A stretch of DNA of 51,253 nucleotides from a bacterium (lineage in GTDB: Bacteria; Chloroflexota; Dormibacteria; Aeolococcales; Bog-877): the NCBI GenBank assembly GCA_021809895.1, contig JAJZJU010000004.1, forward strand, positions 1 through 51,253, given 5' to 3'. The notes beneath the pieces were generated by a model, which was not told the DNA's origin, made no database searches, and worked only from the letters and a program-made list of their open reading frames with translations. Both the position numbers and the translations under genes were made by a program. Positions 9,221 through 51,024 of this stretch are shown piece by piece (position 1 is the first letter of the stretch; the number at the start of each line of letters is the position of its first letter).

Positions 9221-11725
9221 CTAATTCAGCACCACAGCCATCTGGGCGTAGCTGGAGTAGGCACCCTCGAAGGTGGCAAGGGGAACCCACCGCAGCGGTC
9301 CCGTGTAGGGGGCCCCTGAGCTGGTCTGGTCCCAGGGGTTGTCGATGAGGATGGCGTTCACCCCGATGCCCACGACCATGACCGAGTGCTCGTGCGGGCC
9401 CGCCCAGGGCCAGGAGTCGTGGCCGTTGCTCAGAAAGGTCGGGGTGTAGTGCTGGAAGTTGAATGAGACCCAGGCCTGCACCGGGTGTCCCTCCTCCAGA
9501 TACAGCTCGAGTTGAGTCATGCTTATGCCCTCTCCGGCCGCCAAAACCTGGGCGCCGAAGGCTCGGGCCGCCTTCACCACCGCGCCGTAGTAGGCGCCGG
9601 GCTCGTATCCGGCCGCCTCCGGGCCATTGGGCGGGCCTATGAAGTTCTGCATGGGGTCCCCACTGGTGTAGCTGGGACCGATCCCGGGGACGGTCCGGTC
9701 GACTCCCTCAGCGCCAAGGATGTCGTTCTGGCTCTGAACGTTGTTGCCTTGGAGCAGGATCCCCTGGTGGGCGAGGGCCATCTCAAGGGCGGCCTCCTCG
9801 CAGTCCATGCCGTAGGCCTGAGGGGAATAGGGGACGTTCCCGACCACGATGCTGCCGCTGCTGCGCAGGCTGTCAACGGCGACGGCCTGCGCCTGCTCCG
9901 GGCCCCCGAGATAGCTGGCGATCTCAACTGTGAAGGTGTAGGTGGCAGCCGCCCAGCCCTGGGTCGAGACAGGCAGGCTGGCCTGGCTGGTCCAGCCCTG
10001 GCTCAGCTCTCGGGCCGCCGCCCCACCCGACTGCACAAAGTAGGCATATGCCGGCGAGTCGACGGCTGGGCACTGGGGGGCCGCGGTCACCACCACCGGA
10101 GCTGAGACCAGGCCCGGGTTGGGAGACACCGACACCGAAACGCCGGTGCAGGGCGGGGGGATGACCTGGGTGTCAGCCGCTCCCAGCTGCTGTTGGTAGA
10201 CGCCGCTCTCCGAGCCCACCCAGGCCAACAGCTGGTAGCCGCCGGCGGTCCAGTCGGCGGATGGGTAGGCGTAGCTGGAGTCGGTCGACCCGCTCACAGC
10301 CAGTGACCACGACAGCTGGCCGGGGGCCCGGTACCAGTAGCTGTAGTAGGGAGTGGCTCCGGAGGGGCAGTCGCTCTGAACGCTGACCGTGATCACCGAG
10401 CCCATCGCCGCCTGGGTTGGCGCCGAGAGCAGAGAGTCCGAACATGGCTGAACCTCCGGGCCGCCCGCCACCGCCACCGCCGGCTGGAAGTAACCGAACA
10501 CGTCGAGGATGGCAGCGGCCGAACCCTGGTTGTTGTACAGAGAGAGGTTGCCCAGCTGGTTCAAGGGCGAGATCGCGAGGTTCGCCACCGTCTCCCCCGG
10601 CTGCCAGTTCAGATCGGAGGTCGTGGGCGCGCCCCCGCTTGGGGACAGGGTGAAGAAGCTCGCCTGGGTGGTGTCGGTGGCGGTCAGGTTGGCCACCACC
10701 GCCGAAGCAGACGCGGCCACTGAGGACAGTCCGGCAACCTGTTCGGTGAGGGAGCCCTGAGGGCCGAGGGTCCCGGCGTTGACTCGGGTGTCGAGGATCC
10801 GGGTCGGCACGATCGGAACGAACAGCGATGCTCCCGCAACCGAGGTGGCGGAGGCTGTGAAGTATCCGTCGACGTCGACCACCAGGTTGGTGTTGCCGGC
10901 CCAGTTGTAGGCAGCTATAGCTCCGCCGGCTCCCAACGGCACCACCACCCTGTTGGCGACCGTGGATCCAGCCGTCCAGTTGAGGGTCGAGGTTTTGGGA
11001 TTGGCCTGACCCGCCGGGTAGATGGACAGAAAACTGTTGGCGGTGGTGCCAACCGCGGTCACGTTCAACACCACCGCGGCGGCTCCAGAGCTCGGGATTC
11101 CGCCTTGGCCCGCAACCGCGACGTCCAGGGTCTGCTGCGGGCCCAGGGTCGAACCGGAGTAGGGCTCGCCACTGCCGGCGCGGGTGTCCGCGATCCGGCT
11201 CGGGGCGACCGGCACGTACTCACCCGACCCGGAACCAGAGGGCGGCGCGAAATAGCCCTGAAGATCGACGACCACCTCGGTCGCCCCACTCTGGTTGTAG
11301 ATGGTCACGCCGCCATTGCCGAGGCTGACCAGCACCAGATTGGCCAGGGTTTCTCCCGCCGTCCAGTTGAGATTGGAGACCTCTGGACGGGCTGCCCCCT
11401 GCGGATACACGGAGAGGAAGCCTGCGGAGGTGGGGTCGGTCACGGTCACGTTGAGGACGACAGCTGAGGCGTCAGCCGGCACCGCGTCAGTTCCTGCTAT
11501 CTGCAGAGCCATGGTCTGGCCCGGCCCCAGCGCTCCGCCCTGGCTGCGGGTGTCGAGGAGTCGGCGCGGAGAGAGCGGGAAGTAGGCAGCTCCGGCGGAG
11601 CTGGCGGCACTGACGCCCGAGACAAGCCCAACTCGCACACCCAGGGCGGCCAGCGCAAAGGCGACTAGAAGGTAGGCCGAGAAAGTGAGGGTGGTGCGGA
11701 CAGGCTGGGGCCGGGAGGTGGTCAT
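9221..11725 (-). CDS. Secreted modular protein: three LDTR repeats plus C-terminal C39-like peptidase domain
   Basis: An 834-residue exported protein. Residues about 18-42 form a signal or anchor helix. Three copies of a repeat of about 120 residues follow (about 48-164, 170-292, 304-418), each beginning with a P.R..DTR motif and ending NLNW/TLNW...YN...VVVDVxGYF. About 430-610 hold two Cys-containing Ig-like segments. The C-terminal 205 residues resemble the C39-like family 2: catalytic-type Cys in YGMDCEEAALEMA (about 642), His in HEHSVMVVGIG and LIDNPWD near the end. It probably acts outside the membrane as a papain-fold hydrolase or binding module. Four relatives with other effector domains lie in the window. 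Repeat architecture is certain, enzyme activity inferred. Confidence 0.85.
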   Translation of the reverse strand: MTTSRPQPVRTTLTFSAYLLVAFALAALGVRVGLVSGVSAASSAGAAYFPLSPRRLLDTRSQGGALGPGQTMALQIAGTDAVPADASAVVLNVTVTDPTSAGFLSVYPQGAARPEVSNLNWTAGETLANLVLVSLGNGGVTIYNQSGATEVVVDLQGYFAPPSGSGSGEYVPVAPSRIADTRAGSGEPYSGSTLGPQQTLDVAVAGQGGIPSSGAAAVVLNVTAVGTTANSFLSIYPAGQANPKTSTLNWTAGSTVANRVVVPLGAGGAIAAYNWAGNTNLVVDVDGYFTASATSVAGASLFVPIVPTRILDTRVNAGTLGPQGSLTEQVAGLSSVAASASAVVANLTATDTTQASFFTLSPSGGAPTTSDLNWQPGETVANLAISPLNQLGNLSLYNNQGSAAAILDVFGYFQPAVAVAGGPEVQPCSDSLLSAPTQAAMGSVITVSVQSDCPSGATPYYSYWYRAPGQLSWSLAVSGSTDSSYAYPSADWTAGGYQLLAWVGSESGVYQQQLGAADTQVIPPPCTGVSVSVSPNPGLVSAPVVVTAAPQCPAVDSPAYAYFVQSGGAAARELSQGWTSQASLPVSTQGWAAATYTFTVEIASYLGGPEQAQAVAVDSLRSSGSIVVGNVPYSPQAYGMDCEEAALEMALAHQGILLQGNNVQSQNDILGAEGVDRTVPGIGPSYTSGDPMQNFIGPPNGPEAAGYEPGAYYGAVVKAARAFGAQVLAAGEGISMTQLELYLEEGHPVQAWVSFNFQHYTPTFLSNGHDSWPWAGPHEHSVMVVGIGVNAILIDNPWDQTSSGAPYTGPLRWVPLATFEGAYSSYAQMAVVLN
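10471..11584 (-). repeat. LDTR three-repeat cassette, copy A
   Basis: Three protein-level repeats of about 120 residues. Repeat 1 is the short form (LLDTRSQGGALGPG), repeat 2 the long form with a GSGxPYSG insert (ADTRAGSGEPYSG), and repeat 3 the short form again (ILDTRVNAGTLGP). The same short-long-short order occurs in copies B and E. Confidence 0.85.
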
Positions 11726-13990: not shown

Positions 13991-14379
13991 CCTTGTCTCC
14001 TCTGCTCCGAATTGACCAGCGCGGTGAGCCGCGCTCTCCATGACCGAATAGGGACAGCGGCCAGCTCGCTCTCTGGGGAACCGCTGGCCGGGAGGGGCGT
14101 TTGCTCCACCAGAAAGTCGTCAGCTGGCGGGTCCTGTGGCGGTATACGAGCAGCCCTTGACATCGGATCAATCGGGATGGAGCCCGGCCCACCGGTCGCA
14201 CAACCGCGGGGCAGGTGTCCAAGCCGGAGATGGCGGGGCGAGCCGCCGTCTGGACCGCCGGCGGCCAAAGGAGCGGGACAGCTGGAGTCGCGGGCTGTTG
14301 CCTCGAACCGGACTGAGGCGGGACGCGCATACTGGGTCGCTCCGACCCGACGTGCCCGTTGCGTTTGCAGGAGCAGGAG
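13991..14379. other. Divergent intergenic region
   Basis: Separates the minus-strand Tat/DUF4331 pair from the plus-strand glycan cluster. Open frames here have no plausible product on either strand. Promoters for both directions should lie here, but I see no convincing -35/-10 pair. Confidence 0.4.
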
Positions 14380-25998: not shown

Positions 25999-27185
25999 AC
26001 TCCGCTTCCCTGGCCCCGCAGGTTGGTCAGGTCCACCACCGGCACCGAAACCTGCAACTCACGGTACTGATGATGGGGAGCTCCGATCACCAGCAGCTCC
26101 GACTCCGCCAGCACCTCCTCCAGGGGAACCAGATTGGGGTCGATGGTGACGTAGGGGTCGGTGCAGAGCACCCGCTTGGACTTGAACTGCAGGATCCTCT
26201 TCAGCCGGTAGCTCAAGCTGGAGCGGATGTCGTCGGACTCGCCCTTGAAGGCCATCCCCAGGATTCCAACGGTCATCGAGGCCAGGTCGAAGCGCCGCTC
26301 CAGCCGAGCCACCGTGTAGAGTGGCAGCCCCTCGTTGATGAGCATCGCCGAGTGGCCCAGGGTGAACTGGTTGTTGTTGAAGGCGGCCAGCTGCATGGTG
26401 TCCTTGAGCAGGCACGGGCCCGCCGCCAGCCCCGCCCCGGGCAGGTCCTGGGCCCGAGGGTAGTTGTGGGCCAAAGCGCCCCGGATGCGATCGTAGTCCA
26501 GCCCGAAGTCGTTGGCGATCATGTAGAGCTGGTTGGCGGTGGCGAACTTGATGTAGCGCCAGGTGTTGGTGAAGAGCTTGGCCAGCTCGGCCTCCTCCGG
26601 CTCCAGCTCGACTATCTCCTTGGTGAGCTGGGAGAAGAGGGCTGCCGCCCGAGCCCGGATCTCCGGGGTCCTGCCCGACACCAGCTGGGGGAGGGAGTGG
26701 AGCTCGGTCATCGCGTGACCCTCGGCGATCCGCTCCGGGCAGAAGGCGACGTCGACTTGGAGACCCTGCTCCTGGAAGAGCCGCTCCACCATCCTGGTCA
26801 CCCCGGGGTAGAGGGTGCTGCGCAGCACCAGCAGCTGGCCCGGGACCAGGTGCGGGCTCAGCTTCTCGATCTCCTCGGGGACTCCCAGCGCCTCCGGGTT
26901 CAGGTGCTTGTCGATGGGGGTGCCGATCACGACCACCACGTTGGCGGCTTGCCTCAGCACCGCCGGGTCGGTGCCGGCTGTGAACTGACCGCCGGCCAGG
27001 GCGGAGGCCAAGGCCTCCTGCGCCCCCGGCTCCTGGAACGGCATGCGCCCGGAGTTGACCATCTCCACCGCGCGCTGGCTGGTGTCGTAGACCGCAACCC
27101 TCAGCCCCCGGCCAGCGAAGGCCAGGGCCAGCGGCAACCCCACATGGCCGCAGCCGCCCACGACCGCGACATCGACCCTTCCCAT
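25995..27185 (-). CDS. UDP-sugar 6-dehydrogenase (UDP-glucose/UDP-ManNAc dehydrogenase family)
   Basis: A 396-residue nucleotide-sugar dehydrogenase that oxidises the C6 alcohol to a uronate in two NAD+-dependent steps. The NAD site is VAVVGGCGHVGLPLALAF (residues 4-21). The catalytic Cys lies in GPCLLKDTMQ (about 260), a variant of the usual GGxCxxKD. Strand motif AFCPERIAEGHAM points to the UDP-N-acetylmannosaminuronate/WecC-like branch more than to UDP-glucose dehydrogenase. ATG 27185 gives the normal N-terminus; the frame is open to 27287 but without similarity. First gene of the operon with the DPM1-like GT2 and the epimerase. Confidence 0.88.
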   Translation of the reverse strand: MGRVDVAVVGGCGHVGLPLALAFAGRGLRVAVYDTSQRAVEMVNSGRMPFQEPGAQEALASALAGGQFTAGTDPAVLRQAANVVVVIGTPIDKHLNPEALGVPEEIEKLSPHLVPGQLLVLRSTLYPGVTRMVERLFQEQGLQVDVAFCPERIAEGHAMTELHSLPQLVSGRTPEIRARAAALFSQLTKEIVELEPEEAELAKLFTNTWRYIKFATANQLYMIANDFGLDYDRIRGALAHNYPRAQDLPGAGLAAGPCLLKDTMQLAAFNNNQFTLGHSAMLINEGLPLYTVARLERRFDLASMTVGILGMAFKGESDDIRSSLSYRLKRILQFKSKRVLCTDPYVTIDPNLVPLEEVLAESELLVIGAPHHQYRELQVSVPVVDLTNLRGQGSGV

Positions 27186-27366
27186 TCTGAGAGCAGATGT
27201 TAAGGGATGCTGGGTCCGGCTCCCGCCGTGAATGGAGTCCGAGCCCAGAGACCTCCCGGACGCAGGGATCCCGAGCCCCTCCGCCAAACGAGGAGCTGAC
27301 TGGTGACCGCGCCCGGCACTACATTTCGTCCGTGGCGGCCGCCGGGGGACGTCCGTGGATCCGGTC

Positions 27367-29763
27367 TCAGGGAGAGGGTGGCGGGGTGGGCCCGTAGGCC
27401 ACCTCGAAGCCGGCGGTGGAGAGCGCGGAGGGGGTGGACACCTGCTGCCCGTTCTGCACCATCAGGCTCTCCACCTCCGAGGAGTAGGGGCCGGTCAGAC
27501 CCAGCTGGGTAAAGGTGGTGGTGGTGTAGTCCGCCATCTGGCTTATCGCGCCGTTCACCTCGGGCGCCTCCACGATCCACTCGGCAGACGAGAGCGGCCC
27601 CGTGTAGCTCTGGTCGGTGGTGAAGCTGGCACCGCTGGTGGTGTCGACCAGGGAGATCGACCACTGGCCGGCGCTCTGCTGGGTGATGGTGACCTGCAGC
27701 TGGTCCCCGGGGGCGACCTGCATGGTGGTGATCGTGGTCTCCGTGCTGGGCAGGATCTCCCACCAGGGAATGATGTAGAAGCTGCCGGGATTGTTGGGGT
27801 CCTCCGTCTCCAGGATCCCGGCCTGGATGAGGCTGGAGTTGGTGGCCCCGTCGATCCCCACCCACTCCGCCATGTAGGTGTTGGTCTGGCCCTGATAGAG
27901 GCTGGGCACGGTGAAGGTGCCGGTCACCCCGGTGTAGGGCCCGGTTCCGAAGTAGTAGCCCGACCAGTTTGGTGACTGGACGGTCCCGGTGGTGGGCGGG
28001 GTCACCGTCAGCGAGAGCTGGGCGATTGCCGTCTGCGGGGTCGGAGAGGAGGAGTCCGTCACCCTCACCTCGAAGCTGAACGTCCCCGACTGCTCGGTCC
28101 CCCCCGAGATGAGCCCCTGCGGGCTCAGGGTCAAGCCCGAAGGAAGAGAACCGGAGGCCAGCTGCCAGCTGTAGGGAGCGACCCCGCCCGTCGCCTCCAG
28201 CCCGTCCGAGATCGCGGTGCCGGCGGCACCCTGGGGAAGGGTTGTGGTGGTCACCGCCAGCGGGGCCTGCGTGCTGGGGTCGCCGACGAAGTACCCGAAG
28301 GCATCCATGACCGCGTCGGCCGACCCGGCGTGGTTGTAGATGGTGGTGGCGCCACCGGAGCCCAGGGTGGCGATGGTGAGGTTGGGGACGGTCTGACCGG
28401 CCGCCCAGTTGACATCGGACGCGAGCGGCCGTGAGCCGCCCGGGTAGACGGTGAAGTAGCTGGCCTGGGTGGTGTCGGTCGCGGTCACGTTGCTGACCAC
28501 GGCGGTCGCTGCGGCCGCGATCCCGTCCTGACCGGCGACCACCTGGGTCAGGGTCTGCCCCGCTCCTAGCGGAGAGCCGCTGATGCGGGTGTCGAGCAGA
28601 CGGACCGGGGTGATGGGGATGAACATGCTGGCGTTGCTGGGGGCCGCCTGGCCCTGGGTGAAGTAGCCGCTGACGTCCACCACCAGCTGGGCCGTGCCGG
28701 TGTGGTTGTACACGGTCACCTGCCCGGTGGGCCCGACCGGAACCACTACCCGGTTGGCGACGGTCTCCCCGGCCGTCCAGTTGAGGTCGGAGCTGGTGGG
28801 AACGCTGCCTCCCTGGGGGTAGACGCTGAGGTATCCCGCCTGGGTGGTGTCGGTCACGGTCACGTTGAGGAGCACCGCCGCCACCCCGGCCGCGGGCACA
28901 TCGCCGGCTCCGGCCGCATCCACGTTCAGGGTCGCCCCCGGCTCCAGGGTGTCGCCGCTGTAGGGCAAGCCGCTGCCCGGCCTGGTGTCGACGATCCGGT
29001 CGGGTGGAAGCGGCACGTAGCTGCCCGCCACCACGCCGCTGGCGGCGGGCGCGAAGTAGCCCTGCAGATCCGCCAGCACCTGGGTGGAGCCGGCGTGGTT
29101 GTATATCGTCACCTGGCCACCCTGCCCGACGGGCACGATCACCAGGTTGGGGACCGTCTCACCCGCCGCCCAGTTGAGGTTGGAGACCACAGGCCGCGCG
29201 CCCGCAGCCGGGTAAAGGGTGAGGAAGCTGGCCTCGGTCGTGTTCGTCACGGTGACGTTGAGCGCGACCGCGACCGCGGTGCTGGGCACGCTGCCACCGA
29301 CCACGGTGAGGTTCAGCGTCTGCCCGGGGCCCAGGGGACCGGGGCCCGACCTGGTGTCGAGGATGCGGGTCGGAGCCAGCGCCGTGTAGACACTGCCGGT
29401 GGCGGCGGTTGAGGTGGCCAGGGAACCGGCTTTGATCTGGAGGCCGGCCCTCGCGTCGGGCCAGGGGTGGAGCTTGGCCAGGGTCCCGGCACCGATCCGC
29501 AGCGAGGTCCCCTGGACCAAGGCTGGAACGTGCGTCCCCAAGGCTGGGGGTGGAGCTTCGGTGAGGCGGGCGGCCATGGACACCCCCGATGGGCCCACCG
29601 CCTGGGCGGCTGCGCCGCCGCCAATGCCGGCAACCAGCGCCGCCCCGGTCAGAACCCAGAGCATGGGCGCCAGCGACCCTCTTGGGCGATGGCTTGCGCC
29701 GACCCGATGACGGGAGCGGAGCCCTCCTTCCGCCCAGGCCCGGACGCCTTGGTTATCAGTCAC
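27367..29763 (-). CDS. Secreted modular protein: three LDTR repeats, Ig-like domain, G1 (eqolisin) peptidase domain
   Basis: A 798-residue exported protein. A signal helix lies at about residues 34-53 (LWVLTGAALVAGIGGGAAA). Three LDTR repeats follow at about 123-240, 250-370 and 380-493, then a putative Ig domain (about 500-590). The C-terminal 200 residues match the G1 glutamic-peptidase family: NWSGYYFGTG, AEWVGIDGATNSSLIQAG with the candidate catalytic Gln (about 646), and AEWIVEAPE with the candidate Glu (about 728). Members are usually acid-active secreted endopeptidases, so an acidic habitat is possible. GTG 29763 is the start; the upstream gene ends 8 nt earlier, so the two are co-transcribed. 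Confidence 0.87.
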   Translation of the reverse strand: MTDNQGVRAWAEGGLRSRHRVGASHRPRGSLAPMLWVLTGAALVAGIGGGAAAQAVGPSGVSMAARLTEAPPPALGTHVPALVQGTSLRIGAGTLAKLHPWPDARAGLQIKAGSLATSTAATGSVYTALAPTRILDTRSGPGPLGPGQTLNLTVVGGSVPSTAVAVALNVTVTNTTEASFLTLYPAAGARPVVSNLNWAAGETVPNLVIVPVGQGGQVTIYNHAGSTQVLADLQGYFAPAASGVVAGSYVPLPPDRIVDTRPGSGLPYSGDTLEPGATLNVDAAGAGDVPAAGVAAVLLNVTVTDTTQAGYLSVYPQGGSVPTSSDLNWTAGETVANRVVVPVGPTGQVTVYNHTGTAQLVVDVSGYFTQGQAAPSNASMFIPITPVRLLDTRISGSPLGAGQTLTQVVAGQDGIAAAATAVVSNVTATDTTQASYFTVYPGGSRPLASDVNWAAGQTVPNLTIATLGSGGATTIYNHAGSADAVMDAFGYFVGDPSTQAPLAVTTTTLPQGAAGTAISDGLEATGGVAPYSWQLASGSLPSGLTLSPQGLISGGTEQSGTFSFEVRVTDSSSPTPQTAIAQLSLTVTPPTTGTVQSPNWSGYYFGTGPYTGVTGTFTVPSLYQGQTNTYMAEWVGIDGATNSSLIQAGILETEDPNNPGSFYIIPWWEILPSTETTITTMQVAPGDQLQVTITQQSAGQWSISLVDTTSGASFTTDQSYTGPLSSAEWIVEAPEVNGAISQMADYTTTTFTQLGLTGPYSSEVESLMVQNGQQVSTPSALSTAGFEVAYGPTPPPSP
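28285..29395 (-). repeat. LDTR three-repeat cassette, copy B
   Basis: Repeats begin ILDTRSGPGPLGPG (short), IVDTRPGSGLPYSG (long insert) and LLDTRISGSPLGAG (short), the same short-long-short order as in copies A and E. Repeat 1 here is closer to repeat 1 of the protein at 47724 (LNLTV.GGSVP...VALNVTVTNTT) than to repeats 2 or 3 of its own protein. Confidence 0.85.
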
Positions 29764-29771
29764 GCTGTCGG

Positions 29772-30915
29772 CTATCCGTACCAGCCGTAGACGTCGACCA
29801 CCAGGTCGGTGCTTCCCAGCGAGCGGTTGATAAAGGTGATCGAGCCTGCGCTCCCGACCGCCATGATCACCAGGTTCTCGGCGGTCTGGCCCTTGCTCCA
29901 GTTGACCTCGGAGGTCTGTGGCACCGGCTGGCCGCCCGGGCCCACCATCAGGGCCCCGGCCCCGGCGGTGTTGGTGACGGTGACGTTGATGGCCACCGAG
30001 GTGATGCCGCTGACGGGCAGCCCCGCCAGCCCTCCCAGGTCGACCGTCAGCTGCTGGTCGGGCCCCAGGGTCTGGCCCGCGTAGGCCTGGCCGCTGCCGG
30101 TTCTGGTGTCGACCGCGCGGGCGGGCACCACCGTCTGCAGGGGGGTGCCGCTGGCGCCGTACCAGCCGGCGACGTCGAGGATGACGTCGACTGTCCCGGA
30201 GTGGTTGTAGATGGTCACCTCACCGCTCTGGCCCAGCTCCATCACCACCTGATTAGCGGCGGTCTGGCCGGCCAGGAAGTTGATGTTGGACGCCTGCGGC
30301 TGGACCGCGCCGGCGGGAAAGACGGTGAGGAAGCTGGAAGCGGTCGCCTCGGTCTCGGTCAGATTCATCACCACCGCCATGGCGCCGCTGGAGGGGATGC
30401 CGCCGACCCCGGCCACCTGCACCGTCAGCGACTGTCCCGGGCCCAGGGCCTGGCCGGCGTAGGGGTGCCCGCTCTTGGGCCTGGTGTCCACTATCCGTTG
30501 AGGATATACCGAGTTGAGCAGCCCGCCAGCGGGACTCGAGGTGGACGAGTACCAGCCCTCCACGTCCACCACCACCTGGGTCGTGCCGTAGGCGTTGAAG
30601 AGGGAGATGGCACCACCGCGACCGAGCGTGACCAGGGCCAGGTTCGCCTTGGTCACCCCCGCCTGAAAGTCGACGGTCGATGCCAGCGGCACCGGGACCC
30701 CGGTGGGATATGCCGTCACGTATCCGGCCGAGGTGGGGTCGATCACGGTGATGTTGACCAGGGCGGCCTGGGCGCCGGTGGCGGGCACCCCTCCCTCACC
30801 CGCCACCTGCACCGTGATGGTGCCGCCCGGACCGGGAGGCTGGCCGCTGCCGGGGAGCCCGGAGCCGGTCCTGGTGTCCTCGATGCGAGCGGGCACCAGG
30901 GGCGTGTAGCTGGCG
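29772..30915 (-). repeat. LDTR three-repeat cassette, copy C
   Basis: Repeats begin RIEDTRTGSGLPGSG, RIVDTRPKSGHPYAG and RAVDTRTGSGQAYAG. All three have the long insert, unlike the short-long-short order of copies A, B and E, and the last two end in GWY instead of GYF. Confidence 0.8.
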
Positions 30916-32660
30916 GCCGCCGAATAGATGAAGCTGTCCAGGCCCTGGGCCGGGCTCGCCCCCAGCGTGGTCTCCACCGAGACGTTGACGAATCCCGGCG
31001 GCCCGGCCGGCGCGGTCGCCGTGATCTGGGTGGCGGAGTTCACCGTGAAGTTGGGGGAAGGGTTGGGTCCGAAGTAGACCGCCTGGGCGCCCAGCAGGTT
31101 GGCACCGGTGACGACAACCTGGGTGCCCCCCGCCGCCGGGCCCTGGTTGGGGCTCACCGTGAGGACCTGCGGGGGCTGACCCTGGAGGGTGGTCCCGATG
31201 TTGGTGAGCGTGGGGGGGGACTGCCCGGTGGCCAGCTGCAGCTGGTCCCAACCCTGGGTCGGGCTGTAGGAGCCCGACACCGATTCGGTCATGACGCCGG
31301 TGAAGATGATCGGGCCAAGGCTGGTGTTCTGGGCGCCCCACTGGCTGAGGGCCTCCCACTCGCTGGCCATCCCGGTGTAGTAGATCTCCGGCACCGAGCA
31401 GGTGGCGGGAATCCCCCAGGCGACCTGGTAGACCTGCGAGACCGTCCAGCTGTCGGCGCTGCCGCTGCCACCCAGGACGTCATCGCCGTAGTCCGCCAGG
31501 AAGCCGACCTGGCTCAGAGAGCAGCTGTACTTGGCCGGCGAGGCCGTCGAGTAGCCCTGGACCCAGTCCACGGTGGGGGTTCCGGCATACCAGTTGCCGC
31601 TGCTGGACTGCTCCATGTCGCTGGCGCCCCACATCGTGATCGGCGCCGCCAGGTTCGCGGTCGGGGTGGCGGCGACCACCTGCTGGTACCAGGCCTGTCC
31701 GGAAGCCTGCATCTGCGTGTCGCTGAGCGAATACCCGGGATCCACCCCGTTGAGGGAGTTGCTGGTGCCGGCGGCCAGGGTGATGGAGGGGGTGCCAGGG
31801 CCGTGGTCGGACTCGTAGCCCGCGATCCAGTCCGACATCAGGGTGGAGATGGTGGCGTCCGGCACGCAGACCGAGCCGCCGAATATCTGCGCCCCGTATT
31901 CGGTGGTCGCCGTGGGCACAAAGCAGGGGGCGCCGAAATCTAGGATCACGAGACCCGGGGGGGAGGGGGGATAGGTTGCCTGGCCTTGCTGGAAGAGAGG
32001 ACAGGAGGTGGCGGGCCCGGTGGCGCACTGGCTGACGTAGGACTGGTACTCGTAATAGGAAGGAGACGCCTGGGGAGGAAGGACGGCCGCCTGGTTGGTG
32101 ACGGTGGCGCCGGAGTTGAGGCTGTCCGCCAGCAGGTTGGCGCTGGTGCTGGAGGCCGCCCCGGCCATCCCCACCCCCTCCTGGCATCCGCTCTTGGATT
32201 GCGTCCCCAGCTTGCCGGTCGCCAGATCGAGGGAGCGGTAGGAGGAGGAAGCGTCTCTGGTGCAGGCCACCTGGGAGTTGGCGGCCAGGATCGTGAGCGG
32301 CCCCGAGCCCGGCAGGAGATGGAGGCTCTGGGACTGCCCGGAGATCTCGGCCACCGCCCCGGTGCCGGGGTGGCCGGGCCTGGTCCCCGCCAGCACCAAT
32401 TGGGTGGGTCCCACCTGCCAGCAGCTGGTGGGAAGGATGAGTGCTGAGCTGATCGGCAGGTTGAGACAGGGGACGGAGTGGGGTCTGAAGGTGGGAGCGG
32501 CCACGGTCGAGGCACTGAGGGGAGCCAGGGGACCATGCGGACTGGGACCCTGCGCTGCGGGAGCCGAGGGAGCGCCCAGGGCGATGACGGGCACAGTGAC
32601 CAGCCCGAGCAGGACCGCGGTCAGCCGACTCCGGGAGATGGCTCTTGGGGCGAGGTGCAT
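29772..32660 (-). CDS. Secreted modular protein: TIM-barrel-like N-terminal domain, IPT/TIG domain, three LDTR repeats
   Basis: About 962 residues from ATG 32660, which opens a signal peptide (LTAVLLGLVTVPVIALGAP). Residues about 180-480 contain spaced beta strands each ending in polar residues (LVILDFGAPCF, ITLAAGTSN, ITMWGASDMEQ, VGFLADYGDD, IIFTGVMTE). This suggests a TIM barrel, with an Asp-x-Glu pair (SDME) where GH25-type lysozymes have theirs; activity is speculative. An IPT/TIG domain (VLTVSPNQGPAAGGTQVVV) is at about 497-580 and three LDTR repeats run to the C-terminus, the last ending DVYGWYG. No good ribosome site precedes the ATG, so the start is uncertain. Co-directional with its neighbours, 8 nt before the G1 peptidase gene. 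Confidence 0.78.
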   Translation of the reverse strand: MHLAPRAISRSRLTAVLLGLVTVPVIALGAPSAPAAQGPSPHGPLAPLSASTVAAPTFRPHSVPCLNLPISSALILPTSCWQVGPTQLVLAGTRPGHPGTGAVAEISGQSQSLHLLPGSGPLTILAANSQVACTRDASSSYRSLDLATGKLGTQSKSGCQEGVGMAGAASSTSANLLADSLNSGATVTNQAAVLPPQASPSYYEYQSYVSQCATGPATSCPLFQQGQATYPPSPPGLVILDFGAPCFVPTATTEYGAQIFGGSVCVPDATISTLMSDWIAGYESDHGPGTPSITLAAGTSNSLNGVDPGYSLSDTQMQASGQAWYQQVVAATPTANLAAPITMWGASDMEQSSSGNWYAGTPTVDWVQGYSTASPAKYSCSLSQVGFLADYGDDVLGGSGSADSWTVSQVYQVAWGIPATCSVPEIYYTGMASEWEALSQWGAQNTSLGPIIFTGVMTESVSGSYSPTQGWDQLQLATGQSPPTLTNIGTTLQGQPPQVLTVSPNQGPAAGGTQVVVTGANLLGAQAVYFGPNPSPNFTVNSATQITATAPAGPPGFVNVSVETTLGASPAQGLDSFIYSAAASYTPLVPARIEDTRTGSGLPGSGQPPGPGGTITVQVAGEGGVPATGAQAALVNITVIDPTSAGYVTAYPTGVPVPLASTVDFQAGVTKANLALVTLGRGGAISLFNAYGTTQVVVDVEGWYSSTSSPAGGLLNSVYPQRIVDTRPKSGHPYAGQALGPGQSLTVQVAGVGGIPSSGAMAVVMNLTETEATASSFLTVFPAGAVQPQASNINFLAGQTAANQVVMELGQSGEVTIYNHSGTVDVILDVAGWYGASGTPLQTVVPARAVDTRTGSGQAYAGQTLGPDQQLTVDLGGLAGLPVSGITSVAINVTVTNTAGAGALMVGPGGQPVPQTSEVNWSKGQTAENLVIMAVGSAGSITFINRSLGSTDLVVDVYGWYG

Positions 32661-32871
32661 GGAGATGGAGCCGGGAACCTCAAGGAGACGGACGATGAGG
32701 CGGAGGCCGGCGCCGTGGCGCCTCTTCACCTCCACCGCTGCCAGGGTAGACGACAGGGGCAGTCCAGGGGGACGTTCGGCTGTGACCTTGTGGTAACGAT
32801 GCGCAGGGTCCAGGATGGCCACGGCCGGGAGCGCCAGGGCTCGCCGGCTCCGCCTCGGCTGATGGCTGATC
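32661..32871. other. Short intergenic gap inside the secreted-protein run
   Basis: 211 nt between the stop of the C39-LDTR gene and the start of the TIM-barrel-like gene. The minus-strand frame of the latter remains open across it but shows no family-like sequence. It may carry an internal promoter; none is clear. Confidence 0.35.
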
Positions 32872-34030
32872 TCAGCTGTACCAGCCGAGCACATCCACCA
32901 CCACATCGGTGGAGCCGGCATTGTTGTAGATGCTGAGTCCGCCGCTGGAGTTGAGGGTGGCGATGACCAGGTTGGGCACGGTCACCCCCCGGGCCCAGTT
33001 GAGGTTGGAGGCGAGCGGGACCGCGCCGGAGGGGAAGACCGTCAGGTATCCAGCCGAGGTGGTGTCGGTCGCGGTGACGTTGATCACCACCGACGTGGCG
33101 GTGGTGGGGACTCCACCAAGGCCGGCCACGCCCAGGGTCAGGGTCTGGCCCGCGCCGAGAGTCTTGCCGGTGCACTGGTTGGCGGGCTGGTTCGGCCTGG
33201 TGTCGCAGATCCGGGCCGGGCTCGAAGCCGCGGTGAAGTGGCTTCCCAGCTGGGTCCCTCCCGCGTAGTAACCGAGCACGTCCACCACCACCTGGGTTGT
33301 GCCGGCGTCGTTGTAGACGGTGAAGCCACCGGCCGAGTTGAGGGTCGCCACCACCAGGTTGGCGACCGTCGACCCCTGGGACCAGTTGAGGTTCGAGGCC
33401 GTGGGGACGGTTCCCGACGGATAGACGGTGAGATAGCCCGCCGCCGAGGTGCCGGTCACGGTCACGTTGACCACCGCCGCCGCGGCCCCGCTCGGGACCC
33501 CGCTCAGGCCCGCCACATTCACCGCCAGAGTGCCCTTGGGCCCCAGGGTCTTGCCGGTGCACTGGTTGGCCGGCTGGTTCGACCTGGTGTCGCAGACCCG
33601 GGCCGGAACCAGGCCGTTGTAGAGGCCGGAGCCCGAGGTGGTGGTGAAGTACCCCTCCACGTCGATGATCACGTCAGCCTGGGAGGCGTTGGTCACCACC
33701 GCCACCTGCCCCTGCTGGCTCGTCCCCACCTCCACCAGGTTGGCCACGGTCTGGCCGCCCACGAAGTTGAGGTTGGAGCTGGTGGGAGGGGTCTGTCCGG
33801 CGGGATACACGGTGAGGTAGCCGCTGCCGACCGGGTTGGTCACGGTGACGTTCAGGGCCACCCCGGTCACCCCGGTGGCGGGTATCCCGTCGAGCCCGGT
33901 CACCTGCACCGTGAGCGGGGCCCCGGAGGCCAGGGTGTGGCCGTCGCACTGGGCGGCCGTGCCGCTGAGGTTGGAGGGATTGCCGGCCCTGGTGTCGCAG
34001 ACCCGGGCGGGGGAGATGGGGACCATCGCC
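32872..34030 (-). repeat. LDTR three-repeat cassette, copy D (cysteine variant)
   Basis: Repeats begin RVCDTRAGNPSNLSG, RVCDTRSNQPANQCTG and RICDTRPNQPANQCTG. Copies 2 and 3 are nearly identical around the motif, indicating recent duplication or conversion. A second Cys (AAQC in copy 1, NQC in copies 2 and 3) accompanies each CDTR. Confidence 0.85.
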
Positions 34031-35253
34031 CCCGAGGCCCCCGTCAGGGTGTAGGAGTAGGTGACGGCCTGGGCGGTCGGGCTGGTCCCCATCCAGTCGC
34101 TGACCTGGACCGGCTGCGAGCCGCTGCCGGTGGGCGCGGTGACCGTGAGCTCGGTGGGACTCACAAGCGTCACCGAGCTGGCCTGGGCGGTGCCGAAGGT
34201 GACCTCCGCCGGGAGCTGGAAACCCGTCCCGGTGACGGTCACCGACGAGCCCCCTGAGCCGGTGGTCGGGCTGATCGCGCTGACGGAGGCGACGGTCGTC
34301 CCCGCCACCGTGAAGGGGAACCAGAAGTTCGGGTTGCCGGTCTGGGTCTCCACCACCATGAACCCGGCGGTGAGCTGGGCGGGGGCGGTGAAGGCGATCT
34401 GCTGGGAGCTCCAGCTGCTGGTGGCGACCGGGGTCCCGTTGAACCACTGGTCGGTGGGATCGGTGTAGGGGAGGTACAGCAGCTGGGCCCCTGTGCCGGC
34501 CGTGCCCAGTACCGCTGAGGGGGCGGTGATGGTCTCTGTGCCGCCGGCGCTCATCGAGCTCAGCTGGGAGGAGGGGGCGGCTGGTCCGCTGTAGAGACGG
34601 ATCGACTGGATCCCGGTCAGGGGGTTGCCGTAGCGGGACTGAAAGGTGGTGTGGTCGCCGAACCAGGGGTCGTTGATCCAGAGGGTCCCATCGGGCCCGA
34701 GCCCGGTGATGAGGACGAAGTGCATGCTGCCGTCCAGGGTCACCTGGGCGATGACCGGGTAGCCCAGCGCCAGCGAGTTGTCGATGGCGGAAAGGCTGGT
34801 CGACTCCCAGCCGGTGTAGGAGACCGACACCCCCTGGGACTGGGCGAACTGGGCGACGGCGCCCCACACCAGCAGGTCCTGGTCCACGTAGCCGCTGTGA
34901 TTGATGAGCCACTGGTTGAGCGCGCCCGGGTTGGTGCTCACCCCGTAGCTCTCCAGGAGCATGGTGGCGGCGGTCAGGGCGCAGCCCTGGCTGGCCACCG
35001 TGGAGGTGCTGGTGCCCAGGTCGGTGGGGCCCCAGGGCTGCCATTGCTGCCCATACAGAGGAACGGTCGGGCCCTGAGGTCCGGGCGAGGTGGTCGTGGT
35101 CGCCGCCCTGACCCCGCTTCCCAGGGTCACGGTCACCCCGGCCACCAGGGCCGCCAGCACCAGGCAGACGCCGGCAAGCAGAAGGGCTCTGGGCCGGGAG
35201 CGCAAGTCAGAATGCGCCTCCGCGCGAGCCGGGGTCGAGCTGAGGGCCGACAT
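32872..35253 (-). CDS. Secreted modular protein: N-terminal C39-like peptidase domain, TIG domain, three Cys-containing (CDTR) repeats
   Basis: A 793-residue protein. A membrane helix at about residues 26-48 (LLLAGVCLVLAALVAGVTV) is followed by a C39-like domain (about 62-205): Cys in SQGCALTAATMLLESYG (about 91), His in MHFVLITGLG (about 177) and WINDPWFGD. A TIG-type domain (ISPTTGSGGSSVTVTG) is at about 325-398. The three repeats read VCDTR...QC in each copy, so Cys replaces the residue before DTR and pairs with a second Cys about 15-20 residues on, probably as a disulfide. It starts at ATG 35253, sharing one base with the stop of the upstream anchored-protein gene (TGATG). Confidence 0.85.
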   Translation of the reverse strand: MSALSSTPARAEAHSDLRSRPRALLLAGVCLVLAALVAGVTVTLGSGVRAATTTTSPGPQGPTVPLYGQQWQPWGPTDLGTSTSTVASQGCALTAATMLLESYGVSTNPGALNQWLINHSGYVDQDLLVWGAVAQFAQSQGVSVSYTGWESTSLSAIDNSLALGYPVIAQVTLDGSMHFVLITGLGPDGTLWINDPWFGDHTTFQSRYGNPLTGIQSIRLYSGPAAPSSQLSSMSAGGTETITAPSAVLGTAGTGAQLLYLPYTDPTDQWFNGTPVATSSWSSQQIAFTAPAQLTAGFMVVETQTGNPNFWFPFTVAGTTVASVSAISPTTGSGGSSVTVTGTGFQLPAEVTFGTAQASSVTLVSPTELTVTAPTGSGSQPVQVSDWMGTSPTAQAVTYSYTLTGASGAMVPISPARVCDTRAGNPSNLSGTAAQCDGHTLASGAPLTVQVTGLDGIPATGVTGVALNVTVTNPVGSGYLTVYPAGQTPPTSSNLNFVGGQTVANLVEVGTSQQGQVAVVTNASQADVIIDVEGYFTTTSGSGLYNGLVPARVCDTRSNQPANQCTGKTLGPKGTLAVNVAGLSGVPSGAAAAVVNVTVTGTSAAGYLTVYPSGTVPTASNLNWSQGSTVANLVVATLNSAGGFTVYNDAGTTQVVVDVLGYYAGGTQLGSHFTAASSPARICDTRPNQPANQCTGKTLGAGQTLTLGVAGLGGVPTTATSVVINVTATDTTSAGYLTVFPSGAVPLASNLNWARGVTVPNLVIATLNSSGGLSIYNNAGSTDVVVDVLGWYS

Positions 35254-35843
35254 CAGCCGACCCTCAAGGTGGCGGTGCCGTAGCCTGCGATGGGCGCCGC
35301 GGGGTTGTTGTTGGGGAACTGGAACCCGCTGACCACCACCCCGGCCGAACCGACCGAGCCGGCGGGAACCGTGAGCTGGCCGCTCGACCCCGGGCCGGGG
35401 ATGGTCAGCTCATACTCCTGGCCGAGATACACGAAGATCTCCTGCCCGGCCAGCCAGCCGCCCTGACCCGCCGTCACCGTGACCTTGGAGGTGGACCCGG
35501 CGGCCACCTGGGTGGGGCTGAGGCTCAGGGGTCCCGTGACCACGCTGCCCCCTGCGTCCAAGGGATATGGGTACTTGCCGCTGGAGGAGGGCGGTGGACT
35601 GGGCGGCGCGCTCTTGCCCACGCCGGAGGAGGCGCTCGGGCTCGGGGAAGGGGTGGACGATGGGGTGGGAGAGGGGACCGAGAGCGCAGCCGCGTGTCCG
35701 CCGCTCGACTGGTGCTGCCCCGCCCCAGTCGACAGGCGCTGCGAATTGCGGGCGGTGATGTGGAACGCGGCCAGCCCGACGATCCCGATGGCGGCGACCG
35801 CGGCGACTGCGACGACGACGGTGCGGAACGAATGCTGCGACAT
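35253..35843 (-). CDS. Membrane-anchored Ser/Pro-rich extracellular protein
   Basis: A 196-residue protein from ATG 35843. One transmembrane helix near the N-terminus (VVVAVAAVAAIGIVGLAAF, about residues 8-26) is followed by a Ser/Pro/Thr-rich linker (about 45-95, SPTPSSTPSPSPSASS) typical of wall-spanning regions. A C-terminal beta-rich domain of about 95 residues begins LSLSPTQVAAGSTSKVTVTAG and looks like a small Ig-like fold. No enzyme motif. It is the first gene of the run and overlaps the C39-LDTR gene by one base, so it may anchor or help export of those proteins (inference). A longer upstream frame to 35942 has no hydrophobic logic and was not used. Confidence 0.75.
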   Translation of the reverse strand: MSQHSFRTVVVAVAAVAAIGIVGLAAFHITARNSQRLSTGAGQHQSSGGHAAALSVPSPTPSSTPSPSPSASSGVGKSAPPSPPPSSSGKYPYPLDAGGSVVTGPLSLSPTQVAAGSTSKVTVTAGQGGWLAGQEIFVYLGQEYELTIPGPGSSGQLTVPAGSVGSAGVVVSGFQFPNNNPAAPIAGYGTATLRVG

Positions 35844-36419
35844 TGCTGGTACCAAGAACACGGCCGGGCAGGACACGAACGGACTTCCGGGCCAAACCCC
35901 CGGGAGCCAGAGCAGCATGACGTCCCGAGGGCGCGAGGGCAACTGCCGTTACAGGATCGCTTCAGGGGCCGTCGCCCAGCACCCGCGCCGGAGGAGCGGT
36001 CGCCAGCTCTCCGAGGCCGCGCTACCAGCAACCCGTCCGCGTGGATGCCGACTCGAGCCGGGCGCTCACGCTCCCCCGGGGCGCTCATGGGCCAGGACAA
36101 GGAGGCGCCGGCTGCTGATCCGGTAGTGGCGGGGATGTCCAAGACGGCGCGTGATCGATATGGGACTACTCCTCAGCCGCGGTCTAGATGGCAAAGCATC
36201 CCACCGCTGCGAGCCGGGACCACCACAGGACAGCGCCGCGAAGGCCCTCTCGGTCGACTCGCAGTGGCAGGAGCGCGGCGGCATCGGTAAGGGGAATGGC
36301 ATCTCCCCGGGTACCACACCGGGCCAATGCCGATCCACCAACCCTGACACTGGTCACCAAGAGCAAAGCCTTCACGGCAGTCCTGGTGCGGCGGCGCGAC
36401 GCCGAGCAAGCGATGCCGC
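35844..36419. other. Intergenic region upstream of the secreted-protein run
   Basis: No recognisable gene on either strand. It should contain the minus-strand promoter for the genes starting at 35843, but no convincing -35/-10 pair stands out. Confidence 0.35.
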
Positions 36420-39399: not shown

Positions 39400-39923
39400 C
39401 ATGACCGTCCGATCACACTGGCCTGGCGGGACTCTGGATCAGACCGCGGTCTGGGGTCGCCACCGAACTCTCGGGGTCGAGGCGTTCCGTTGGGAGCAGA
39501 GTGCCTTCTCAGGCACGACCCACCGTGATCCCAGGTGGAACGAGGTCTTCCCATCGCCTCCAGCCGCCCGAGGGAGTCGATCCCGGATTCCGCAACAGGG
39601 ATGACGGCTTGAAACAGAAAGCGCCCACGGGATGCGGAAAAGAGGCAGGACGCCAGGCGCAGGCGTAGTGCCTAGGCCGAGCTTCGGTCGGTCGGGTAGC
39701 TCGGCAAAGTTGGCCTCCCGGGCGAGCAACCACAGGCTCCGAGGGCAATAGATTGCCCGACCGGGGCTACCGGCTCATGTCCCTGACGACCCCGGTCGTG
39801 GGCCCGGCGGGACTTCCATCATGCAAGAGGGGGTGGGTCCGCAGCCCAAAGGGACGAACTGGACGGCTCTGAAGCGGATAAAGGGTGGGGCCCAGGCCGC
39901 ACCAAGGAGGGACGAAGACCGCG
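39400..39923. other. Intergenic region before the integrase
   Basis: No gene supported on either strand. AAGGAGGG at about 39904-39911 provides the ribosome site of the integrase. No direct repeats marking an attachment site could be picked out by eye. Confidence 0.35.
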
Positions 39924-47723: not shown

Positions 47724-48840
47724 TCAGCCTGGGATGAAGTACCCGAAGGCGTCCACGATGACGTCAGCACTCCCGGCGTGGTTGTAGATGTCGGTCGACC
47801 CCACGCTGCTCAGGGTCGCCAGGGTCAGGTTCGGAACGATCTCTCCGGCAGTCCAGTTGACGTCCGAGGCTGTCGGTCGGGTGCCTCCGGGATAGACCGT
47901 GAAGAAGCTCGCCGCGGTCGTGTTCGCAGCCGTGACATTGGTCACAACGGCCGTGGCGTTGGATGCGATCCCACCTACGCCGGCCATCGGCACTGACAGA
48001 ACCGAACCCCCGCTCAGCGGGGTCCCCGTCTGGCGTGTGTCCAGGACCCGAACCGGGGTGATGGGTTCGAAGAGGCTGGCGTTGGCTGGGGTCGAGCTGC
48101 CGTTGGTGAAGTAGCCGCTCACGTCGACCACCACGTCAGTACTGCCTGTGTAGTTGTACAGCGTCACCATCCCGGTCGTACTGACCGGCACCACCACCCG
48201 GTTGGCGACCGTCTCACCAGCCGTCCAGTTCAGATTCGAGGCCAGAGGTCGCGAGGTCCCCGCAGGATAGGCGGTGAGGTATCCAGCTGCTGTGGTGTTG
48301 GTGGCGGTCACGTTGAGAACAGCCCCGGTGACACCCGAGGTGGGCACGCCACCCGCGCCGGTCACTTGGATGTTCAGGGTTCCACTGGAGGCGAGGGTCT
48401 GGCCCGCATTGGGATAGCCGCTTCCGGACCGTGTGTCGGTGATGCGAGCTGGTGTCAGCGGTACGTAGCTTCCCGCTGTACTCCCCACCGCTTCAGGCGC
48501 AAAGTAGCCCTCGAGGTCCACAACCACGTCAGTCGAGCCGGTGTAGTTGTAGATGGTGACCTCGCCGCTCGCCCCTACCGGAACTATCACCAGGTTGGGA
48601 ACCGTCTTGCCCTGGGTCCAGTTGAGATTGGAGACGACTGGCCTCGAGGCGCCGGCAGGATATACCGACAGGTAGCTCGCCGCCGTCGTGTTGGTGACGG
48701 TGACATTCAACGCCACCGCGGTCGCGTTCGTTGGGACACTTCCGCCGGTAACTGTCAGGTTCAAAGAGGCATTCGCGCCGAGAGGCGTCCTGCTGGTTCG
48801 GGTGTCAAGCAAGCGCTTGGGCGTCAATGCCGTGTACGCG
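47724..48840 (-). repeat. LDTR three-repeat cassette, copy E
   Basis: Repeats begin RLLDTRTSRTPLGAN (short), RITDTRSGSGYPNAG (long insert) and RVLDTRQTGTPLSGG (short). Order and detail match copy B: repeat 1 of both contains LDTR then VALNVTVTNTT and PVVSNLNW, and repeat 3 of both contains a short-form DTR and ends DAFGYF. Confidence 0.85.
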
Positions 48841-50924
48841 CTGCCAGTGGTCGACACCCCGAAGACCGTTCCGGTCAATTCGGCCAACGTCGGGCTGGTC
48901 GAACTCGTGAGCGTCACCGACACGCACGCCGGCGGACCGGCCGTGTAGGTGGGCACCGGCGCGACTGCCTCCCAGGCTCCGGCCCCGGCGCTGGCCAGCG
49001 GGTTCCACCATTGCAGAGAGCCACCCCCATTCAAGTTGCAGTCTGTGATCGTCAGGGCCGTAAAGGAGCTGCCGGCCGCAACCTGCACATCGAAGTACTC
49101 GCCTGCGGAGGCGAACGTCGGCGGACCGACTGGGTCCGAGGCGTACTGCCCCACCGTGAACGACCCTTGCCCGCTGGCCGTGACCGTCGTCCCATCATTG
49201 GTCGCCGTGGCTGTCCCAGTCGGGCTGGTCGAGGTACCACTAGCTGAGCTAACCGTCCCGGGTGCCCCGGGAGGGGGAGGGGTGCAGGTGGAGTTCACGC
49301 ACCACGACGAGTAGTTGACGTGGGCGGACACCGGGCTGCCGGATCCCGGTCCGACCGGGCCCGGACCGGACGCGGCCCCCCACCAGTTGCCGGTGGCGTC
49401 CAGCGGAGAGGCGGTGCAGTCGCCGTTGCTGTTCAGGCAAGCTACCCCGTAACTTGAAACTCCGCTGCTTGATGATGCTGCCGCCGGAGTGTCGAGTTGA
49501 TTGGCATGCACGGTGGCCCCTGTCGCGTAGCTGGGCGGCGTGGTCGTCCCCCAACTCGCCGTGTTGTTGAGGTACACCGGGTCTTCCCCGACATAGACAT
49601 CGGCCACGAACCCGCTGATCGTGTTGTTCGTGATCGTGTTGCCCGTGCCGTCCCAAACCAGCACGCCGTCGACAGGCACACCCGCCACGGCGGCAGCACC
49701 GCTGTAGACGTAGGTCGTAGCTTCGGTCGTAGTGCCCGTGATGCTGTTGTCGGCAACCAGGATATTCTTGCTTGCAAGCCCAGAGCTATAGCCAGGCCCG
49801 ATCTCTACGCCCGCCGATCCGGCAGTGATCGTATTGCCGGTGATCGTGCAGCCCGCGGCCCCGTGGACATCGACACCGTTGTCGTTGGCCGTGAGCGTAT
49901 TACCCGTCACGCTACACGTGGCGCTCGAGGCCTGACTGTCAAGCCAGACCGCGCCTACGCTCCACGGTGACTGGAAGTCGCTGATCGTATTGGCCGAGAT
50001 GCTCAGATCGGTGAGGCCGCCAGCGATGATGCCGAACTGGGCCGCCGGTGCGGTCAAGGCGGTCGGGTCACCGGTCAAGGTGTTGCCGGTTACGCTGGCG
50101 CTGAGAACCCCAGGCGATAGTGCCATGAGGTTGATTGCGTGGGCCCCGCCGTAGTTCTGGACGGTATTGCCAGTCACTCTGACGGTCGCCGATACGTGAG
50201 TGCTCTTCACGGCGATCCCCAGCACGCTTGAGTCGCCACTGGCAACGCCGGAGTTCTGGATGTGCTCCACGGTGTTGTCCATGACGGTGCCGCTGGTGTC
50301 GATGAGGGCAATCCCCTCCCACGGTGCAGCGAAGGGGTTCGAGGTGGATGTGCTCGTCGGGGTTGACGTTGGGCTCGTGCCGGTGATCTGACTGCCGTTC
50401 ACGGTCAGGTTCGCCACGGTAACCGAAGCACCGTTACCTGCTGGTGTCGAGGTCAAGGCGCTGTCCGTCGACCCGGTTTGAGCACCGATAATGGCGTCAG
50501 TGTTGCCGGTGTTGTTGTCCGCGAAGTGGCCGGTATTGCCCTCGGTCACGTTGGCGATCAGCGAAGTTGGCTCGACGACGGCCGCTATCCCAGAGGTCGG
50601 ACCCTGTAGGGTGAGTGAGGTCATTGGTGACGAGGACGGTGGGGCAATCGTCACCTGCTCAGCGTACGGGGTGGTACTCCCAGCGATCTGGATGACGACG
50701 GGACCGGCGATCGACTCAGCTTGGTCGACCGCGTACTGGATCGTGACACATGGGCTCGTGGGAGTCTTGCAGTTGTTGGAGCTGGAGTTGGATCCATTGG
50801 TCGCTACGTAGAGCGTGGTGGCAGTGGTAGTCGTGGCCGCAACCGGTGCCGCCCCGACTGCGGCCATACCCGCGAGCACTATCACCCCTGCGATTGCTAA
50901 ACGCGCCAGATGACGTAGATTCAC
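47724..50924 (-). CDS. Secreted right-handed beta-helix protein with three LDTR repeats
   Basis: About 1066 residues. GTG 50924 is preceded by GGAGAG 7 nt upstream and opens a signal peptide (LARLAIAGVIVLAGMAAVG, about residues 6-24). Residues about 45-560 carry a pectate-lyase-like parallel beta-helix, seen from many spaced turns such as VTGNTVQNYG, ISANTISDFQ, VTGNTLTAND and ITNNTISGF, plus a GNWWG turn. A linking beta domain (about 580-690) leads to three LDTR repeats reaching the C-terminus. Such helices often bind or cleave polysaccharides, but no catalytic set is identifiable. The frame is open upstream to 51023 without a signal-like sequence. The last repeat ends DAFGYFIPG. Confidence 0.85.
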   Translation of the reverse strand: MNLRHLARLAIAGVIVLAGMAAVGAAPVAATTTTATTLYVATNGSNSSSNNCKTPTSPCVTIQYAVDQAESIAGPVVIQIAGSTTPYAEQVTIAPPSSSPMTSLTLQGPTSGIAAVVEPTSLIANVTEGNTGHFADNNTGNTDAIIGAQTGSTDSALTSTPAGNGASVTVANLTVNGSQITGTSPTSTPTSTSTSNPFAAPWEGIALIDTSGTVMDNTVEHIQNSGVASGDSSVLGIAVKSTHVSATVRVTGNTVQNYGGAHAINLMALSPGVLSASVTGNTLTGDPTALTAPAAQFGIIAGGLTDLSISANTISDFQSPWSVGAVWLDSQASSATCSVTGNTLTANDNGVDVHGAAGCTITGNTITAGSAGVEIGPGYSSGLASKNILVADNSITGTTTEATTYVYSGAAAVAGVPVDGVLVWDGTGNTITNNTISGFVADVYVGEDPVYLNNTASWGTTTPPSYATGATVHANQLDTPAAASSSSGVSSYGVACLNSNGDCTASPLDATGNWWGAASGPGPVGPGSGSPVSAHVNYSSWCVNSTCTPPPPGAPGTVSSASGTSTSPTGTATATNDGTTVTASGQGSFTVGQYASDPVGPPTFASAGEYFDVQVAAGSSFTALTITDCNLNGGGSLQWWNPLASAGAGAWEAVAPVPTYTAGPPACVSVTLTSSTSPTLAELTGTVFGVSTTGSAYTALTPKRLLDTRTSRTPLGANASLNLTVTGGSVPTNATAVALNVTVTNTTAASYLSVYPAGASRPVVSNLNWTQGKTVPNLVIVPVGASGEVTIYNYTGSTDVVVDLEGYFAPEAVGSTAGSYVPLTPARITDTRSGSGYPNAGQTLASSGTLNIQVTGAGGVPTSGVTGAVLNVTATNTTAAGYLTAYPAGTSRPLASNLNWTAGETVANRVVVPVSTTGMVTLYNYTGSTDVVVDVSGYFTNGSSTPANASLFEPITPVRVLDTRQTGTPLSGGSVLSVPMAGVGGIASNATAVVTNVTAANTTAASFFTVYPGGTRPTASDVNWTAGEIVPNLTLATLSSVGSTDIYNHAGSADVIVDAFGYFIPG

Positions 50925-51024
50925 GATGGACTCTCCTTCCTGACGGAACGGCGCTCCTATGGCCGCTTCCAGTCTGCCGTCATACAACAGATGGACCCGG
51001 AACGCAGGGCTGATCTTCTTCAAC

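Follow-up and report, generated by a model that had tools for sequence, protein, structure and literature searches.

The analyses presented here show that five minus-strand genes of a contig from a bacterium of the Dormibacteria (GenBank JAJZJU010000004.1, assembly GCA_021809895.1; the whole stretch analysed, positions 1 to 51,253, is called the window) each encode three copies of a repeat of about 120 residues, and that the three repeats travel together as one cassette between unrelated partner domains. We consider it probable that the cassette is a pseudo-trimer of jelly-roll domains, built naturally within a single chain, which would serve outside the cell to bind or hold; the restriction to exactly three most likely means a closed pseudo-threefold unit. 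In the mechanism that we propose, three jelly-roll repeats of ~120 amino acids (aa) would come together as a rigid, closed head with three blades, similar to the BclA/C1q/TNF-type heads that are assembled from three separate chains, with the conserved S-x-LNW motif at the repeat–repeat interface. The head would be exported with its partner, placed either at the extreme C-terminus or directly behind the signal peptide, and exchanged as a unit among unrelated partners; being three-sided, and probably glycan- or envelope-binding, it would hold secreted hydrolases or stalks at their target. The analogy with binding heads is based on BclA, C1q and TNF-like lectins; from the predicted models we infer a relation to such heads and, by analogy, a putative extracellular binding or holding function with three faces.

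Repeats and cassettes in the window

A hidden Markov model (HMM) built from the repeats found exactly three in each of five minus-strand open reading frames (ORFs), 15 in total (113–128 aa each; per-domain E 1e-34 to 1e-55 in the five ORFs), and no further copy in six frames of the window outside them, so that a first-pass annotation of this DNA was right in describing three ~120-residue repeats per gene in five genes. The features are as follows (r1 to r3, repeats 1 to 3; E-values from Pfam).

9221..11725, minus strand: cassette protein, signal-like N-terminus, cassette and C-terminal Peptidase_C39_2 (Pfam, repeat HMM)
10484..11587, minus strand: its cassette; r1 11246-11587, r2 10856-11221, r3 10484-10825 (HMM, alignment)
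9335..9838, minus strand: its Peptidase_C39_2 domain (5.9e-8)
27367..29763, minus strand: cassette protein, signal-like N-terminus, cassette and C-terminal Peptidase_A4/G1 (Pfam, repeat HMM)
28285..29391, minus strand: its cassette; r1 29050-29391, r2 28657-29022, r3 28285-28626 (HMM, alignment)
27481..27972, minus strand: its Peptidase_A4 (G1 eqolisin) domain (1.5e-29)
29772..32921, minus strand: cassette protein, N-terminal domain without a family, TIG and C-terminal cassette; likely start near 32660 (Pfam)
29775..30911, minus strand: its cassette; r1 30546-30911, r2 30156-30518, r3 29775-30140 (HMM, alignment)
30963..31172, minus strand: its TIG, directly before the cassette (3.1e-11)
32872..35253, minus strand: cassette protein, N-terminal Peptidase_C39_2, TIG and C-terminal cassette (Pfam, repeat HMM)
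32875..34029, minus strand: its cassette; r1 33643-34029, r2 33262-33624, r3 32875-33237 (HMM, alignment)
34663..35064, minus strand: its Peptidase_C39_2 domain (1.4e-11)
34051..34287, minus strand: its TIG, directly before the cassette (8.3e-8)
47724..51023, minus strand: cassette protein, N-terminal beta-helix and C-terminal cassette; likely GTG start at 50924 (Pfam, repeat HMM)
47733..48839, minus strand: its cassette, the one folded with AlphaFold; r1 48498-48839, r2 48105-48470, r3 47733-48074 (HMM, alignment)
49788..50315, minus strand: its right-handed beta-helix region (Beta_helix, 9.1e-11)

Over ~120 columns the alignment of the 15 repeats is invariant at P7, R9, D12-T13-R14, G, N, T, P, P, S, G, N, G, D and G, and by inspection all five proteins begin with a signal-peptide-like segment. 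The partner labels C39 (twice), G1 and beta-helix of the first-pass annotation were recovered by Pfam; the TIM-barrel-like label was unconfirmed, with no Pfam match for such a domain in 29772-32921. The repeat itself has no model in Pfam 2025 or NCBIfam 2026, in keeping with the earlier view that it is uncharacterized; searches of PDB sequences with a single repeat and with a profile gave nothing significant, and no description of the repeat was found in the open-licence papers searched. Two candidate assignments were rejected: sporadic matches of DUF6054 to the repeats fell below cut-off, and the CoaZ model of NCBIfam, which scored 22.7 bits in 32872-35253 where its cut-off is 30, matched the TIG region and not the repeat.

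Copy number, partners and movement as a unit

Three is the rule for the number of repeats. Among the 136 complete ORFs in all fetched loci, 111 carry three repeats, 22 one and 3 two, and none carries four or more; these counts include duplicates from overlapping loci, and deduplication leaves 98 three-repeat and 21 one-repeat ORFs. Consecutive HMM matches are mostly 6–13 residues apart. Several of the one-repeat ORFs (L013, L050, L056) are fragments or a probable frameshift, and most of the remainder form one group within a single class of Chloroflexota.

Partner domains of at least 12 kinds accompany the cassette (Pfam assignments, a few of them below the curated cut-off). They are A4/G1, C39_2, pro-kumamolisin, YkuD, CHAP, CAP, Amidase_2, phosphoesterase, PQQ, FG-GAP, Kelch and BNR propellers, TIG, He_PIG, PKD, FlgD_ig, Big_1/Invasin_D3, lectin-like and beta-helix domains. 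The modular system with hydrolase-like heads envisaged in the first-pass annotation stands in part: the heads are interchangeable on a constant exported module and some of them are hydrolases, but many are beta-propellers or Ig-like, PKD or invasin-type domains, and the notion of a secretion system is not supported. Both A4 and both C39_2 domains of the window genome sit in cassette proteins. In relatives, A4 peptidases also occur in ORFs of 275–371 aa, too short for a ~370-aa cassette beside the enzyme and, judged by this ORF length, the cassette would be optional.

Of the best matches between loci, 87% pair repeats of equal position (57% for matches below 55% identity), and repeat position is far more clustered on the repeat tree than in shuffles (41 changes versus 136). 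On a tree of 132 cassettes the cassette switched between N- and C-terminal positions 13 times, with at least seven switches forced by well-supported branches; on this tree the beta-helix protein of the window, whose cassette is C-terminal, adjoins an N-terminal-cassette protein of the A4 cluster.

The diversity of partners, and the TIG, Ig-like or PKD spacers that often adjoin the cassette, would also suit a passive role as stabilizer or spacer, in which the cassette shields secreted enzymes and extends them away from the cell without a specific ligand. Considering that a very C-terminal position is odd for a spacer and that polar residues are strongly conserved across phyla (though possibly for structural reasons), we regard this explanation as rather improbable.

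Export and position of the cassette

A simple signal-peptide heuristic, applied to deduplicated ORFs, was positive for 76 of the 98 three-repeat ORFs, compared with 33 of 210 controls taken from those loci. Together with the 111 three-repeat ORFs among 136 and the many partner classes, this agrees with the earlier prediction of an exported cassette with many partners, usually in threes; the repeat did not prove to be a known domain, nor did copy number and partners vary too freely for a cassette to exist.

The enrichment of signal peptides, and the fact that in most proteins the cassette ends 0–8 residues before the stop, could alternatively point to a sorting or anchoring signal that directs its partner to the cell surface in the manner of a C-terminal secretion domain. 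We think this quite improbable, given that in 25 of 132 cases the cassette precedes its partner at the N-terminus, that no LPXTG motif or C-terminal membrane segment was present in any of 119 cassette or repeat ORFs (which may thus be either anchored or released), that no NCBIfam sorting or anchor domain scored above cut-off, and that the short A4 ORFs of relatives cannot hold a cassette. A known C-terminal sorting or anchor domain (type IX secretion system C-terminal domain, choice-of-anchor, LPXTG) was rejected on the N-terminal cassettes and the lack of a profile match.

Predicted structure and likeness to known heads

AlphaFold, run with 81 cassettes, predicted the 369-aa cassette with a mean local confidence (pLDDT) of 96.8 and a predicted template-modelling score (pTM) of 0.93; because pTM is this high, the relative placement of the three repeats is confident and fixed. 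The structure prediction called for by the first-pass annotation thus yields a triplet that would be one rigid unit. A single repeat (pLDDT 98.5) is predicted to be all-beta, and is likely, on this model, to be a jelly-roll-type beta sandwich.

None of the PDB matches listed for the complete cassette is a whole-chain relative (template-modelling score, TM, to the query at most 0.21). Among the viral models listed from BFVD, the sole whole-chain match is a ‘BclA C-terminal domain’ protein of Bodo saltans virus (TM 0.58, root-mean-square deviation 8.0), the other matches reaching TM 0.25 at most. For the single repeat, the highest TM listed from the PDB is that of the BclA C-terminal domain (3twi; 0.54/0.50), and a trimeric phage cement protein gave 0.48. 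The models suggest BclA/C1q/TNF-like domains as the best lead to the nature of the repeat; they are not proof of it.

The BclA C-terminal domain, C1q and TNF heads (3twi, 1wck) share with the repeat, as predicted, an all-beta sandwich of ~120–136 aa and the role of terminal head of exported proteins, and they form a threefold unit, as the cassette may do. They differ in that the cassette has three copies in one chain, and in that there is no sequence-profile match and the TM of 0.43–0.54 comes without a significant E-value. The engineered C1q-scGR (PMC4774423) has three trimer-forming jelly rolls in tandem in one polypeptide; it is man-made, with 3-residue linkers, whereas the natural repeats are more widely spaced. 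This single-chain C1q head folds as the natural trimer, and tandem fusion of a C1q-type head is physically possible, the two ends of each chain leaving the trimer at its base (PMC4774423). The bacterial TNF-like lectin BC2L-C (N-terminal domain, 6zzw) was matched by the single repeat at TM 0.41; it has one copy per chain, and fucose binding is known for BC2L-C only (PMC3164656). The turret protein of Sulfolobus turreted icosahedral virus (STIV; 4ind) likewise has three jelly rolls per chain, and STIV structures top the cassette's PDB matches by E-value, but the arrangement differs (whole-chain TM 0.18–0.21).

Ring closure and its alternatives

Mean-field coupling was computed over 137 cassettes (effective number, Meff, 120; 14,400 directed pairs per repeat combination). 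The pair 89-to-77, in which column 77 is the x of S-x-LN-W and column 89 follows TVAN, ranks first for repeat 2 to 3, third for repeat 3 to 1 and 227th for repeat 1 to 2, its ranks in the reverse direction being 670–2320. Arg at column 89 of repeat 2 is paired with Asp or Glu at column 77 of repeat 3 in all 69 of the 69 cassettes with Arg; elsewhere the pair is Leu–Asn or Gly–Thr. The closing pair, column 89 of repeat 3 with column 77 of repeat 1, is concordant in 123 of 137 cassettes. In an independent-pair test on a tree built without columns 77 and 89, about 3.6 of 4 phylogenetically independent pairs were concordant and on average none opposed (P = 0.125, too few pairs for significance), and the same test found no association between columns 77 and 89 within repeat 3. 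Coupling in the same direction from repeat 2 to 3 and from 3 to 1 is as a closed ring predicts, and we suggest that this covariation gives ring closure moderate support, not proof.

The coupling between repeats 3 and 1 also bears on a different explanation, a rigid linear array of three independent glycan-binding jelly rolls like those of carbohydrate-binding modules (CBMs), in which three would be a historical copy number and no ring would form. CBM6/35/36 modules are jelly rolls on secreted enzymes and are among the best matches of the single repeat (TM 0.42–0.51), and tandem CBMs are common on secreted hydrolases. In a line, however, repeats 3 and 1 would not touch, and the pTM of the triplet speaks against independent units; the copy number of tandem CBMs usually drifts, yet here it is fixed at three with four or more absent, and no CBM profile matched in a Pfam scan of 130 repeats. 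We consider such an array unlikely.

The one-repeat homologues bear on the pseudo-trimer in another way. With a simple heptad rule, 14 of 21 one-repeat ORFs versus 3 of 98 three-repeat ORFs showed a coiled-coil-like segment. In the main one-repeat group (L137, L166-L181, L039), of which about 12 proteins are encoded in one Chloroflexota genome, such a segment lies ahead of a twin-arginine (Tat)-type signal; GVYG repeats rich in glycine follow, and the C-terminal single repeat is preceded by a segment with a weak likeness to tail fibres. The coiled coils, as recognized in these sequences, fit one-repeat chains that may assemble as homotrimers.

Several points weigh against a closed head of the BclA type. 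No PDB match of the single repeat reached E < 1e-3, the CBM-type jelly rolls score near BclA, and C1q, TNF and BclA_C are not among the 25 Pfam families listed for 130 repeats. Whole-block coupling does not favour the ring (r 0.05–0.07, versus 0.08–0.10 in the reverse direction), in a test that was underpowered. Two-repeat ORFs do exist, the three comprising one locus counted twice (L007 = L011) and L144, in which two near-identical repeats are an exact duplication. Finally, because the one-repeat proteins are related to each other, the coiled-coil comparison is nearly a single evolutionary case.

Origin and occurrence

On the tree, the three-repeat families of another Chloroflexota class group together with support and separate from the families of Dormibacteria (including the window) and Actinomycetota, so that there may have been two triplications; alternatively, concerted evolution could account for the separate sets. 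We tentatively suggest that a coiled-coil, homotrimeric, one-copy fibre head may have become a single-chain trimer by triplication, perhaps more than once, and that secreted enzymes afterwards acquired this closed unit as a plug-in module, geometry allowing either one copy (homotrimer) or three (single chain). Should the single-chain trimer prove real, nature has reached the same design as the engineered C1q and adiponectin heads; the module would then offer a trimeric plug-in scaffold ready for use, with one-copy and three-copy forms that are directly comparable, and a way to study how soil bacteria that are poorly cultured keep exoenzymes near their target.

The window genome is a Dormibacteria-type metagenome-assembled genome (2.5 Mb, 86% complete) with about 32 repeats, and close public records are labelled Candidatus Dormiibacterota or Chloroflexi. 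The repeat is present in 26 of 41 near relatives, in 41 of 400 genomes sampled across the phylum and in 33 of 151 genomes of another Chloroflexota class. A phage collection gave no match, and none of 40 pattern matches in viral contigs was confirmed as the repeat. Records of Streptomyces, Kitasatospora, Micromonospora, Saccharothrix and Acidimicrobiales (Actinomycetota) also contain it; for the collection scan five repeats served as query, the alignment of all 15 being too diverse. The present work thereby gives a name and limits to a widespread extracellular module of Chloroflexota/Dormibacteria and Actinomycetota that has no curated family, with partners that span proteases, amidases, L,D-transpeptidases, CAP domains, propellers and fibres.

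Genomic surroundings

Three of the cassette genes lie in a minus-strand run (25995-35942) between a gene for a small exported protein (35253-35942) and one for a UDP-glucose/GDP-mannose dehydrogenase (25995-27287); because gene ends overlap or nearly touch, the run is probably one operon. A second, paralogous set of cassette genes, similar in sizes and order, is present at locus L063. The L158 (one repeat) and L144 (two repeats) proteins are exported and share a conserved ‘GHGNGFP’ domain that Pfam does not recognize. Elsewhere in the window, a DUF4331 protein (12462-14633, Pfam E 2.9e-112) is encoded on the same strand between cassette genes, and 710-6766 holds genes of histidine degradation (aromatic amino acid lyase, urocanase and amidohydrolase). 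The plus-strand gene 37303-38181 encodes an exported protein with IDVSYPNCG near its N-terminus and no Pfam match, which by eye resembles a secreted glycoside-hydrolase-type enzyme. The ORF at 39885-41408 is, by eye, tyrosine recombinase/integrase-like, and the region may therefore be mobile.

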